Source: Archaeoglobaceae archaeon (GTDB lineage Archaea > Halobacteriota > Archaeoglobi > Archaeoglobales > Archaeoglobaceae). Taken from it: 33,201 nt of DNA. Location: positions 1-33,201 of the forward strand of contig JALSQI010000051.1 of assembly GCA_026985525.1 (NCBI GenBank). Direction: 5' to 3'. Below the pieces are notes generated by a model. The model had not been told where the DNA came from, did no database searches, and worked only from the letters and a program-made list of their open reading frames with translations. Shown piece by piece: positions 2,510-33,201 of the stretch; positions within the stretch are counted from its first letter, which is position 1; each line of letters starts with the position of its first letter. The position numbers were made by a program, and so were the translations under genes.

Positions 2510-5500
2510 GGTTGTTCAACTTCCACGACTTCTTTTTTGAGCCTTATTCCAGTTACCTTGGAACCGTTCTTACCCATAGTAACCCCAACTATGGCATCCG
2601 CCATTTCGAGAGTTGGCTTTCTGAGAGAAACGACTATGAATTGTGCATCTTTCGACCTCTCTTTTATTAGCTTGGCAACTCTGCTCACGTTAGCTCCGTC
2701 GAGAAACATGTCTATTTCGTCAAAGGCGTAGAAAGGAGCCGGTCTGTACATTTGAATGGCAAATATTAAAGCTAAAGCAATTAAACTTTTTTCACCACCA
2801 CTAAGCGACTCTATTCTCTGAACAGGTTTACCGTAAGGTTTTACTTTTATGTTTAACCCACTACTGAACGGATCTTCTCCTTCTAAGTACAATTCTCCTT
2901 TTCCGTCAGTTAATATTTCTATAACTTTCGAGAAATTTTCTCTTATAGCGTTGAAAGTCTCGAAAAAAGCTTCTTTTTTCATTTTTTCGTATTTCTCTAT
3001 TCTTTTCATTATCTCTGTTCTCTCTTCCTCTAAGCTTAACTTCTTTCCAAGCAATTCGTCTCTCCTGCGTTTTACTTCCTCGTATTCCTGTATTGCTTTC
3101 ATGTTGACTTCTCCAAACTCTTTCAAAATTTTTTCTATCTCCTCTACTTTTTTTATGGCTTCTTCCATTGGCGGTATTTCTCCTTCCAATATTCTTGAAG
3201 TGTCAACTCTATCTATTTCCACATTTACGTTCGATATTGCGTCTTTCCTAGCCCTTATTCTTTCTTCTATTGCAGTTAGCGAATACTTGCATCTATCTCT
3301 ACCGCTTTCTAACATCTTCAGCTTTTCGAACATTTCGTCCCTTTTCCTTCTTAACTCTGTTACTTGCTTTCCTATTCTTTCTTCTTTCCTTTTTAATTTC
3401 TCTTCTTCTTCTTTTAGCTGTGAAATTCTATTTTTACCAGCCTCTATTTTTTCCATTAGCTCTTTTACTTCTTCTTCTATTTTTTCGACTTCTCCCTTCT
3501 TCTCCTCCTCGCTCTCTTGAATTTGTTTTATTCTCATTTCTAAGCTTTTAACTCTACTTTCAGCGTTGTTTAGCCTGTCTTTAACTGAAGAAAACTCCTC
3601 TCTCAACTTCTCGTACATCTCTTCAAGCCTTTCAAGTTCACTTCCTTTTAGTTTCTTTCTCAACGTTTCTACTTCGTCTTCCTTTTCCTTTACGAGTTTT
3701 TCAATCTTAGAAATTTCTAATTCTTTCTCCTTTATTTTATTGGAAATTTCTAATTTTTCCTTTTCTATCTTTTCTATCTCTTCTTTTAGCGTTTCAATAG
3801 CCTTCAGCTCTTTTGCTTTCCTGCTTTTTAAAGAGTCAAGTTCTTCCTTCCTTTCTTTTATTTTTCCAGAGATCTCTTCTAATTCTCTTCTAACTTTCTT
3901 TATTTCGTCTTCAACTCTTTTTACTTCAGCTGAAATTCTGGACTTCTCACTTTTTAGAACGGTAATCTCTTCTAAAAGTTCTTTTTCTTTTTTAATTAAG
4001 TCTTTTGAAATTAAAAACATCCTTTTCTTTTCTGCGTAACCACCGCTCATAACTCCACTTCTCTCAACCAAATCTCCGTCTAGAGTTACCATTCTTCCTT
4101 TGAATTTATCCATAAGTCTTCTTGCAGTTTCTATTCTGTCAACTACGAGAGTCTCTCTAAAAACGTAGTTGAAAACGGGTTTAAATTTCCTATCGCACTT
4201 TACTAAGTTTACGGCGTAGTCAACTACTCCCGGAAAAGAAAGAATGCTACTATCGAGTTCGATCTTGCCAAAATTTTTCTTTATTCTGCTTAGAGGTAGA
4301 AAAGTTGCCCTACCTCCTTTTATCTGCTTTAGGTAATTTATCGCTCTGACCGCATCGTCCTCATTTTCCACAACTATGTACTGAAGTGCATTTCCCGCAG
4401 CAGTTTCGAGAGCTAACGCAAATCTTTCCTCTACTTCGCACAGCTGTGCTACCGTACCAAATATTCCGGGTAAAGCCCTTCTCTCCTTTGCTTCGAGAAC
4501 CAACTCTACTCCCCTCGAAAGTCCGGATTCCATCACACTCATTTCGGCTCTTACCTTTGCTATTTCGACTTCTATGTGTTTTATTCTGTCTTCGATGTCA
4601 GAAAGAGTGTCTCTAAGCGAGAAATACTCTTTATCTAATTCGTTTTTCCTCTTTACTATTCTTCCCGCTTCTATCTCCGCTCTATTTATTTCTTCAGAAA
4701 TTTTTTCTATTTTTTCATCTATCTCTTTGATTTCCGTTGATTTTATCTTTTCTCTTAGACTTTCTGCATTGAGTTCGAGCATCCTCGCCCTGTTAACCAA
4801 CCTGTCTTTTTCTCTCAAAAGTTCACTTCTCTTTTCTTTTAATTTGTCAAGTTTATCTTTTTCAGTAAAAAGTCTATTTTTAATCTCTTTTTCTCTGAGG
4901 TCTAATTCTTCCATTTTGCTCCTTAAAATTTCAAGCTTAACTGATAGTTCGTCCGCTAAGTTCTGCAAACTCGCCCTTTCAACTTCTGCCTGTTCGACAC
5001 TCTTTAAAAGCTCACTTTTTTCTCTCTCTAACTCGGCGATTTTCAAGTTTTTTTCCGTTATTTCTTCTCTAAGTTTTTCTATTCTATGTTTGTACTCTTC
5101 TTCAAGCTTCTCAATTCCTTTTATTTCTGATTCGATTTCAGTTATCCTCTGAGTTATTGAATCGTACGCACTCCCAGTTATTCTTGCTATCTCAGAAGAT
5201 ATCTCTTTGACTTCTCTACTTAACTTTTCTATTTCCTCTCCAAAGGATGCTACTTTTTCAATTAACCGATCCCTATCAGATTCAAGTTTTTCAACTTCTT
5301 TTTTTAATTTTTCTTTCTTACTCAGCAGTATTCTATAATGGTGCGTCTCTATAACTTTTGAAAAATAATTTTTTTCATCTAAAAGATTTTTATATTTTAT
5401 AGCTTCTTCCCTATCTTTTTCAAGTTGTTTTAGTCTTGAGGATACTTCTCTTAAAACAGCTTCTATTTTTTCTATGTTTTCTCTTACCTTCTCCAACTCT

Positions 5501-21273: not shown

Positions 21274-21467
21274 TTCTATCACCTCCCCTAAAATGTTGTA
21301 GTGAAAAAGCTGTGATAGTTTTTCGACAGTTTTTCAAATCTCCATAGAAGAGGACTTAAAAAGTTTGCTTTAACTTGCCTACTGTTTATACGGTTTATAC
21401 AGTTTATGCTATCTTAAAAACTAAGACACCGAAACGTATATATTCTCAGTCGAAAACCCTTAGAGGA
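21274..21467. promoter_or_regulatory. Divergent control region of ino1 and CPSF-type nuclease
   Basis: For ino1 (minus) a TATA-like CTTTTTAAG lies at 21354-21363, giving a leader of about 50-60 bases with GGAGGTGAT. For the plus gene GTATATAT at 21436-21443 is about 27 bp before the ATG at 21468, which fits a leaderless or very short leader. Between them three tandem 9-bp units sit at 21383-21409. The region thus has separate promoters with a possible regulator site between them. Confidence 0.6.
21383..21409. repeat. Three tandem 9-bp repeats (NGTTTATAC)
   Basis: TGTTTATAC, GGTTTATAC and AGTTTATGC follow each other without a gap. The array sits about 20-45 bp upstream of the ino1 TATA element and about 30 bp upstream of the TATA element of the divergent nuclease gene, where an activator or repressor could act on either. 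Nine-base spacing is near one helical turn, so three protein subunits would bind on roughly one face. Confidence 0.65.
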
Positions 21468-22691
21468 ATGGCTGTAATACACTTTCTTGGAGGTTGCAGG
21501 GAGGTTGGAAGGTCTGCGGTGTTAGTTGACAGTATCATGCTCGACTACGGCATGAAACCTTCCTCTCCTCCAGAGTTTCCATTAAACGGAGTTTCACCGT
21601 CGGAGGTAATAATAACTCACGCTCACCTCGACCACGTTGGAGTTGCGCCGAACCTCGTTGACTTGAGTCCGGGAATTTACATGACTCCACCATCAAGAGA
21701 GCTTTCTTACTTATTGCTTAAAGATTCTATGAACATAATGGAATGCCCTCCGTACACTAAGAGGGAGTTTAGGCAGTTTGATAGCAGTATAATAGAAGTT
21801 GACTTCTGCGAGCCGTTTGAAGTTGCAGGCTGGGAAGTTACGTTATACAACGCTGGACACATCCCCGGAAGTGCAATGGTTCACATGTCGAGGGATGTTA
21901 ACCTACTCTACACTGGAGACATAAAACTTGAAGATACGAGATTAATGAATAGAGCGGATACTAAGTTTCCAGAAACTGATGTGCTGATATTGGAAAGTAC
22001 TTATTTTGGGGTTGTACATCCTGAGAGAGAGGAACTTGAAAAGGAATTCGTGGAAAGCGTAGTGGAGACCTTAGACGTGGGAGGACACGCTATAATTCCA
22101 GCTTTTGCAGTTGGAAGAACGCAGGAGATACTAATGATTTTGGAGAAACACGGGATAACTCCATACGTTGACGGAATGGGCAAAGAGGTTGGTAAAATAC
22201 TTGAGGACTATCCGGAGTACATAAAAAGTGCGAAGGGATTGAGAAAAGCTTTGAGTAAAGCCATTCCAGTGGAAAGGGGTAAGAGGGAAAAAGTACTCGA
22301 AGAACCGGCGGCTATAGTAACTACTGCTGGAATGCTAAATGGAGGACCAGCTATGTTTTACATATCGAGGTTATACAACGATGAGAAATCCAAGATTCTG
22401 CTTACGGGATATCAGGTTGAAGGAACTAATGGGGATATGGCATTAAAAACTGGCACTTTGAATCTGGGTAACAGAACTGTTAAGCTTAAAATGGGCGTTG
22501 AACAATACGACTTCTCAGCTCACGCTGACGATGAACAGTTAAAAGAGTTCGTAAGAATATCGGCGGATAGAGGTGTAGAAGTCGTTTTTACTGTTCACGG
22601 AGAAGAGTGCGAAAAATTTGCCGAATGGATTGAAAACGAAGTTGGAATTGAAGCATACGCACCTAAGAACGGAGAAGTTTACGTCATTTAA
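21468..22691 (+). CDS. CPSF-type metallo-beta-lactamase/beta-CASP ribonuclease (aCPSF2-like)
   Basis: From the ATG at 21468 the protein has 407 residues. HAHLDH (51-56) is the zinc motif of the metallo-beta-lactamase fold; GHIPGSAMV, LLYTGDIKLEDTRL and ILESTYFG continue it, and the beta-CASP domain follows with AIIPAFAVGRTQEIL and TTAGMLNGGPAMFYI, ending with FSAHADDEQL and FTVHGEECEKF. No N-terminal KH domains are present, so it is the shorter archaeal CPSF class, which acts as an endo- and/or exoribonuclease in RNA processing and decay. A longer frame from 21375 lacks family support and would include the promoter. It ends one base before the convergent guaA stop. Confidence 0.93.
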   Translation: MAVIHFLGGCREVGRSAVLVDSIMLDYGMKPSSPPEFPLNGVSPSEVIITHAHLDHVGVAPNLVDLSPGIYMTPPSRELSYLLLKDSMNIMECPPYTKREFRQFDSSIIEVDFCEPFEVAGWEVTLYNAGHIPGSAMVHMSRDVNLLYTGDIKLEDTRLMNRADTKFPETDVLILESTYFGVVHPEREELEKEFVESVVETLDVGGHAIIPAFAVGRTQEILMILEKHGITPYVDGMGKEVGKILEDYPEYIKSAKGLRKALSKAIPVERGKREKVLEEPAAIVTTAGMLNGGPAMFYISRLYNDEKSKILLTGYQVEGTNGDMALKTGTLNLGNRTVKLKMGVEQYDFSAHADDEQLKEFVRISADRGVEVVFTVHGEECEKFAEWIENEVGIEAYAPKNGEVYVI

Positions 22692-31966: not shown

Positions 31967-32419
31967 ATGGAAGAAGTTAACAAGATCATCACTTTGTGCG
32001 GTAGGGACTGGGCAAAAGTTGGTGTGGAATTTACGTTTCTCGGTGGTAAGTCTGAATGCGAGAGCTGTAAGCTTAAAAAAACGTGTCTGAGATTAAGAGA
32101 AGGTGCAAAATACAAGATAGTTGGTTTGAGAGATGGCACTCCTCAGGATTGCCCTCTGCACGACGAAGGTGTTGTCGCTGTCGAAGTAATTGAATTACCA
32201 ATAATGGCTTTAATAGACTCCAAAATGGCTGTTGAAGGTGCAAAACTTCACTTTGAGAAGAGGTGCAAAATGATGGACTGTCCTATGTACAACTTGTGCA
32301 ATCCAGTGGAACTGAGGGATGGGGATCCAGTTATAGTGGAGAGGATTATAGGCGATGCTCCTGAGAAGTGTCAGAAGGGTTATCGCTTGAAAGTTGTTGA
32401 GCTGAAGAGGTGCGATTAG
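31967..32419 (+). CDS. UPF0179 family protein, Cys-rich
   Basis: The 150-residue protein matches the archaeal UPF0179 family: KVGVEFTFLGG near the start, CESCKLKKTC, and a C-terminal MMDCPMYNLCNPVELRDGDPV. Ten cysteines are present, and eight fall in two similar sets: C31-x2-C34-x5-C40-x21-C62 and C100-x4-C105-x5-C111-x23-C135. This suggests two metal or iron-sulfur sites from an internal repeat. Function is unknown. The ATG at 31967 is chosen because the upstream in-frame GTG (31958) lies in the ribosome site AAAGGTGAT. The 3' end overlaps 74 bp of the opposite-strand regulator gene. Confidence 0.85.
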   Translation: MEEVNKIITLCGRDWAKVGVEFTFLGGKSECESCKLKKTCLRLREGAKYKIVGLRDGTPQDCPLHDEGVVAVEVIELPIMALIDSKMAVEGAKLHFEKRCKMMDCPMYNLCNPVELRDGDPVIVERIIGDAPEKCQKGYRLKVVELKRCD

Positions 32420-32666
32420 ACCTCTCTATCACTTCAAGAGCTTCAATTAGCTCTTCTGCCATTTTCGTAAGTGTTACAGATTTTTTTCCAGATACGTAGC
32501 TTAAGTTTAAAAGTCCAGCTTTTTCTAACTTGTGTACTTTAACGTATGCTGTTGAATACGGAATTGAGAGAATTTTTGCGAGTTCTGAAATGTTTATACC
32601 TTTGTTTTTCTCTACTGTACGTATTAGCTCTAAATCTCTGACAAAGAGTTTGATGGCTTCTCGCAT
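32346..32666 (-). CDS. Winged-helix transcription regulator
   Basis: The 106-residue protein has a clear winged helix: ELIRTVEKNKGINISELAKI, recognition helix SIPYSTAYVKVHKLEKAGLL, and wing LSYVSGKKSVTLTKMAEEL, then a short dimerisation-type helix (about 72-83). The last 23 residues are polar, low in complexity and encoded inside the UPF0179 gene on the other strand; the true protein core ends near 83. ATG at 32666 is about 25 bp from TTTATAAA (32688-32695) on the minus strand, suggesting a leaderless transcript. It may regulate itself and/or the Tat gene at 33098, since perfect palindromes lie between them. Target and ligand are unknown. Confidence 0.8.
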   Translation of the reverse strand: MREAIKLFVRDLELIRTVEKNKGINISELAKILSIPYSTAYVKVHKLEKAGLLNLSYVSGKKSVTLTKMAEELIEALEVIERSNRTSSAQQLSSDNPSDTSQEHRL

Positions 32667-32866: not shown

Positions 32867-33016
32867 AAACATGACTGGCTTTTTTTGCTATAAAGCTATA
32901 GTCGGTTCACTTTTCAAAGATAATACAAGCTTCGTAATACCTTCTTTTTACCTTATTAGCTCAATTTAACCACCTATACCAAAACATTAATAAACTCTAA
33001 CTTCTGAAAGCAAAAA

Positions 33017-33056
33017 GGAGTTTGAAAAGCTCCCTTTGTGTTTGCAGTGGGAGCTT
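33017..33056 (+). promoter_or_regulatory. Two mutually exclusive hairpins in the leader of the Tat gene
   Basis: Hairpin 1 pairs GGAGTTT (33017-33023) with AAGCTCC (33027-33033) around a GAA loop. Hairpin 2 pairs AAGCTCCC (33027-33034) with GGGAGCTT (33049-33056), eight perfect pairs with a 14-base loop. Both use the same AAGCTCC segment, so only one can form. The ribosome site GGAGG (33086-33090) follows 30 bases later and could also meet the CTCC. A TATA-like element near 32985-32995 would start the RNA just before hairpin 1. The layout is that of an attenuator or translation switch; no known riboswitch class is recognised. Confidence 0.5.
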
Positions 33057-33097
33057 GGTAAAAGTGCAGCGATTGGTCATTTGAAGGAGGTGAGTGT

Positions 33098-33201
33098 GTG
33101 ACCTCAAGACGTGAGTTTCTGGTACTGCTTGCTACGGGCACAGCAGCGATTGCTACTGGCAAAGCTATGCAAATGCCAAAAACTGAAGTTGACCTCTCGA
33201 A
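33098..33201 (+). CDS. Tat-exported protein, N-terminus only (cut by window end)
   Basis: From the GTG at 33098 the frame is open to the window end (34 full codons). The product starts MTSRREFLVLLATGTAAIAT, a twin-arginine signal with Arg4-Arg5 and a hydrophobic core, followed by a polar region. A strong ribosome site GGAGGTGA ends 4 bp upstream. Such signals are usual for folded, cofactor-carrying enzymes such as molybdopterin, iron-sulfur or hydrogenase subunits, but too little of the mature protein is present to name it. It was found by reading the sequence directly, because the frame is short and starts with GTG. Confidence 0.75.
   Translation, partial: MTSRREFLVLLATGTAAIATGKAMQMPKTEVDLS

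Follow-up and report, generated by a model that had tools for sequence, protein, structure and literature searches.

The window, which is the whole stretch of 33,201 nucleotides analysed here, forms the end of contig 51 in a 1.34-Mb genome (95% complete) from a genus of the Archaeoglobaceae. Its last 127 bases are shared with contig C28, which then extends further (contig overlap). The gene starting with GTG on the forward strand (33098-33201, MTSRREFLVLLA...) carries a twin-arginine signal and runs on into contig C28 (locus L003, 24-839). The gene order from this GTG is dsrO, dsrP, dsrM, dsrK, dsrJ and then replication factor C: the first gene is recognised by the NCBIfam model for DsrO (NF045797) with a score over the cut-off, and the following ones match DsrP (weakly), DsrM, DsrK and DsrJ. 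Judged by these matches, the leader belongs to DsrMKJOP, the membrane complex of sulfate respiration. An earlier sequence-only reading had placed the leader ahead of a Tat-exported enzyme; Tat export agrees with the signal of DsrO, whereas "enzyme" is a loose word for an iron-sulfur electron-transfer subunit. The nearest upstream gene is divergent and of the winged-helix type (32346-32666).

The promoter ACCAAAACATTAATAAACTC (32978-32997, forward strand) is composed of a BRE-like CCAAAA and the TATA box TTAATAAA at 32987-32994. It is supported by conservation across the genus, where CCAAAACATTAATAAACT is invariant in all eight dsrO leaders, and by sister genera, where the promoter is recognisable as AACCAAAAAATTAATAAATTC. 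From the usual archaeal distance to the TATA box, the transcript would start at about 33012-33018. The Shine-Dalgarno sequence of dsrO, AAGGAGG (33084-33090, forward strand), has a core, GGAGG, that is unchanged in 8/8 leaders.

The leader stem-loop and its conservation

Between promoter and ribosome site lies a conserved stem-loop (33027-33056, forward strand). Its outer stem joins 33027-33034 (AAGCTCCC) with 33049-33056 (GGGAGCTT) in 8 perfect base pairs with a 14-nt loop between the arms, and the interior holds a U-U mismatch (33035/33048), an inner stem (33036-33039 with 33044-33047) and a short loop (33040-33043). Both arms had been named in the sequence-only reading together with GGAGTTT at 33017-33023 and GGAG at 33086-33089, and all four segments are where it had placed them. 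The hairpin lies about 33 nt downstream of the promoter identical in 8/8 leaders, and should begin about 10-15 nt past the predicted transcript start.

In its best frame the hairpin reaches -17.8 kcal/mol, the lowest energy among the 13,264 43-nt windows on both strands of the 33-kb window, and the stem is predicted to be folded at 80 °C in all eight leaders. The exact arm pair occurs once in the 1.34-Mb genome. The number of 8-bp inverted repeats in the window (22, compared to 17 ± 5 in first-order random sequence) is not above chance and was rejected as evidence for the hairpin. The sequence has no run of T after the hairpin and thus no terminator feature. Rfam covariance models gave no match to the leader at the gathering score and, below it, only chance-level matches to unrelated eukaryotic families; Rfam families and tRNA genes were both dropped as the identity of the element. 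A k-turn (a three-nt bulge followed by G-A and A-G pairs) was not seen on reading the stems of the eight leaders, and searching the literature for RNA motifs ahead of dsr genes returned nothing relevant.

Eight different dsrO leaders were compared, drawn from six genomes of this genus plus a single stray contig, with a dsrO nucleotide divergence of 6-23%. Two of the leaders, L040 and L041, are variants within one metagenome bin, and L037 comes from a contig filed in a Desulfurobacteriaceae bin that was counted in the genus by its dsrO. This contig (JALTBO010000128.1) is Archaeoglobaceae by both dsrO and leader, an apparent binning contamination of the Desulfurobacteriaceae bacterium MAG.

The hairpin occurs in all eight leaders, and a covariance model built on five of them recovers the other three (E = 2e-12 to 1e-9). 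On the alignment 93.7% of the hairpin cells are standard pairs. The sequence-only reading had proposed compensatory changes among aligned leaders as a check, and in this 3' stem they are present: 6 of the 16 pairs are changed on both sides, compared to a shuffled mean of 2.1 with none of the 500 shuffles reaching 6, in a test that rests on few (eight) related sequences and on an alignment fitted to the structure. Structures slid along the alignment as controls gave at most 2 such pairs. The clearest case is the pair 33028/33055, which is A-U in six leaders, G-U in L038 and G-C in L040. The exact arms are retained in six of the eight leaders, the loop between them varies from 13 to 16 nt, and residues on the loop side show some conservation (UUU following CCC, AG preceding the 3' arm). 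Thus the sequence data show that the sense strand can fold into the hairpin and that its pairing is maintained across the genus.

The 5' stem and the Shine-Dalgarno sequence

The sequence-only reading had proposed a switch, in which the central segment pairs alternatively with GGAGTTT on its 5' side, with the 3' arm or with the ribosome site. The 5' stem (33017-33033, forward strand) does exist in the window as claimed, GGAGTTT (33017-33023) pairing with AAGCTCC (33027-33033) with one G-U and a 3-nt loop, but it is not conserved. Its energy of -6.9 kcal/mol does not stand out from chance (p = 0.09 compared to dinucleotide-shuffled sequence), and on the eight-leader alignment 64.3% of its cells are paired compared to 63.1% in shuffled alignments, 231 of the 500 shuffles being as good; sliding the structure by one column even improves the score. 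In seven leaders the 5' segment, folded by itself, reaches -2 to -8 kcal/mol and is predicted to be melted at 80 °C; the segment of L040 is the exception, with a different pairing. The arms thus change without compensation, an outcome that the sequence-only reading had itself named as counting against its proposal, and we rejected the 5' stem as a conserved alternative fold since its pairing is at the shuffled level. Moreover, the position of the TATA box places the 5' arm right at the likely transcript start, and therefore this arm may be partly untranscribed.

Pairing of the CTCC arm with the Shine-Dalgarno sequence did not hold up either. It is negligible in the window even if pairing of the 3' arm is disallowed, and reaches at most about 9% per base in the relatives; blocking the 3' arm shifts the unpaired probability of the Shine-Dalgarno sequence by at most 0.16, and mostly not at all. 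A different pairing, of GAGGT in the Shine-Dalgarno sequence with ACCTC of dsrO codons 2-3 (33087-33105) with the start codon in the loop, is possible in 8/8 leaders, but it is invariant and hence uninformative.

In our data neither a coupling of the hairpin to the Shine-Dalgarno sequence, nor a conserved second fold, nor a ligand, nor a bound protein is supported. The dsrO leader resembles riboswitches and attenuators in being the structured 5' leader of a metabolic operon, and differs from them in having no conserved ligand-binding core, alternative fold, terminator or Shine-Dalgarno coupling. As only the 3' stem is conserved, whereas the 5' stem is not and is melted at 80 °C, the leader is apparently a conserved single-state stem-loop and not a mutually exclusive two-state switch, and the claim of a new archaeal switch is not supported.

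Occurrence beyond this leader

There is one hairpin per genome and it always heads the dsrO-P-M-K-J operon. A hairpin regulon was rejected, as the covariance model finds no second convincing copy: a 21-bit match in genome G005 sits within an AAA+-type coding gene, and an equal-scoring match in G003 was taken as the same. Within the genus, the leaders of dsrA and sat are short and do not contain the hairpin, which is also absent from the dsrO leaders of the sister genera. Therefore an abundant mRNA does not need such a hairpin in general.

In the sister genera, the leaders L042, L043, L044, L045 (about 2957-3003) and L013, and also L020 and L021, contain a short ORF with a Shine-Dalgarno-like sequence (GGGGGTCTAAAATG and similar); the ORFs of L013, L020 and L021 were read by eye, and those of L020 and L021 have 36-44 codons. 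The TGA that closes these short ORFs (MKQLINSKRREEV, MRRKISFKFKKGVYV, MKRKISFKFKKGVYV, MRQQFSFKKGVDV, MEDRDCFLSATEVDAL) overlaps the start codon of dsrO, and the ORFs may encode a leader peptide coupled to dsrO. In the genus of the window an upstream ORF (GTG at -29, MI.HLKEVSV) is open in six of the eight leaders. We rejected it as coding: its start is lost in the window, its frame is broken in L035, its amino-acid changes look unconstrained and there is no Shine-Dalgarno sequence at a normal distance.

Possible roles of the hairpin

Stem-loops of the ompA type at the 5' terminus stabilise bacterial mRNAs. Such stabilisation in bacteria is also stated in general terms in PMC3792030. The dsrO leader is similar in having one stable hairpin near the predicted mRNA 5' end and well upstream of the ribosome site; it differs in its archaeal host with other nucleases and in that the hairpin would stand 10-15 nt in, if the start is rightly placed, instead of at the terminus itself. 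On the present indications, the hairpin would work like a 5' stabilising stem-loop. In Sulfolobus, mRNA is a substrate of aCPSF2, a 5'-3' exonuclease of the beta-CASP family (PMC3792030). A beta-CASP protein is also encoded in the window (21375-22688, forward strand); its best match, below the cut-off, is the aCPSF1 model, whose N-terminal part it lacks, and it is a candidate aCPSF2-like nuclease. In A. fulgidus the dsrMKJOP operon is constitutive and highly expressed (PMC3949148), which a static element fits better than a sensor. Therefore, with a single-copy genus-specific hairpin, a constitutive operon and archaeal beta-CASP nucleases, we favour a passive, static element near the 5' end of an abundant, constitutively expressed mRNA, serving stability, spacing or the masking of a Shine-Dalgarno-like sequence, and give this reading about an even chance of being right. 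The stem-loop would probably slow 5'-end-dependent decay, a protective role for which the parallel comes from bacteria only. It would also tie up its own arms, CUCCC and the Shine-Dalgarno-like GGGAG, leaving the true ribosome site 27 nt downstream as the only one in use, and would not toggle between two folds.

The hairpin could instead be recognised by an RNA-binding protein that regulates how the operon is translated, much as L7Ae does on the leader of its own mRNA. This has a precedent in Archaeoglobus: the A. fulgidus l7ae leader, in which a k-turn that is unfolded without the protein L7Ae occludes the Shine-Dalgarno sequence, is a proven archaeal leader switch (PMC6298567). For this reason the remark of the sequence-only reading that switches are rarely described in archaea is fair, yet needs this addition. 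Both mRNAs are of the Archaeoglobus type and have a stem-loop in their 5' leader, and the partly conserved loop-side residues would suit a bound protein. However, the dsrO hairpin has no k-turn, is stable alone and ends 27 nt before the Shine-Dalgarno sequence, which is not involved; with a single site per genome and the constitutive operon of A. fulgidus, we consider such an operator unlikely. Distinctly unlikely in our view is that the hairpin masks GGGAG (33049-33053) as the ribosome site of an upstream start, the remnant of the leader ORF that is open in the sister genera with its own Shine-Dalgarno sequence and ends at the dsrO start. A possible start codon does stand 5-11 nt past the 3' arm GGGAG/GGGGC in 8/8 leaders, as read from the alignment, but start codons are likely to occur by chance at this distance, and the upstream ORFs in the genus of the window are conserved neither in frame nor in sequence. 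A broader variant, a genus-specific regulatory RNA in which the hairpin took the place of a leader ORF translated in the ancestor, folding over the ribosome site of that ORF, would make translation of the dsrOPMKJ complex depend on stem opening or on a bound protein, and strikes us as quite improbable.

The two other readings are weaker still. As a perfect dyad near the promoter, with about 22 bp between half-site centres and exact arms in six of the eight leaders, the inverted repeat could be a DNA operator, bound by a dimeric transcription factor immediately after the promoter. However, the half-site spacing differs by 3 bp among species, a second exact copy was not found in the genome, and the arms change jointly and via G-U, which is meaningful in sense RNA only. 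Since the G-U intermediates pair on the sense strand only and the loop is variable, RNA is favoured over a DNA operator, which we regard as very improbable. A switch in another register would need an early stem of AAAGG (about 33014-33018) with CCUUU (33033-33037), formed first while the RNA is being transcribed and later displaced by the main hairpin. AAAGG or AGAGG can pair with CCUUU/CCCUU in seven of the eight leaders, and in L040 the stem is perfect (AAGGGAAC/GTTCCCTT; -11.0 kcal/mol, p = 0.01), but it is broken in L035, in the remaining seven it is weak and no longer formed at 80 °C, it displays no compensatory change and its 5' arm may fall at or before the transcript start. We hold this reading to be extremely improbable.

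To our knowledge, comparative support exists for few cis-acting structures in the leaders of archaeal mRNAs. The dsrOPMKJ leader hairpin adds such a case, ahead of the membrane complex of sulfate respiration; its novelty is modest, as it belongs with the conserved leader stem-loops. It nevertheless offers a small concrete element for asking whether, in hyperthermophilic archaea, 5' hairpins govern how long an mRNA lasts or which start site is chosen. A separate observation concerns another genus, in which a dsrO-like gene (L023 and L024) has a very short leader with a hairpin in approximately the last 30 nt before 1324/1327. This hairpin (CCTCCAAT/ATTGGAGG) includes the Shine-Dalgarno sequence itself; its calculated energy at 37 °C is -10.8 kcal/mol, and at 80 °C it is marginal. 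As a candidate for control of translation it is stronger than the leader of the window.
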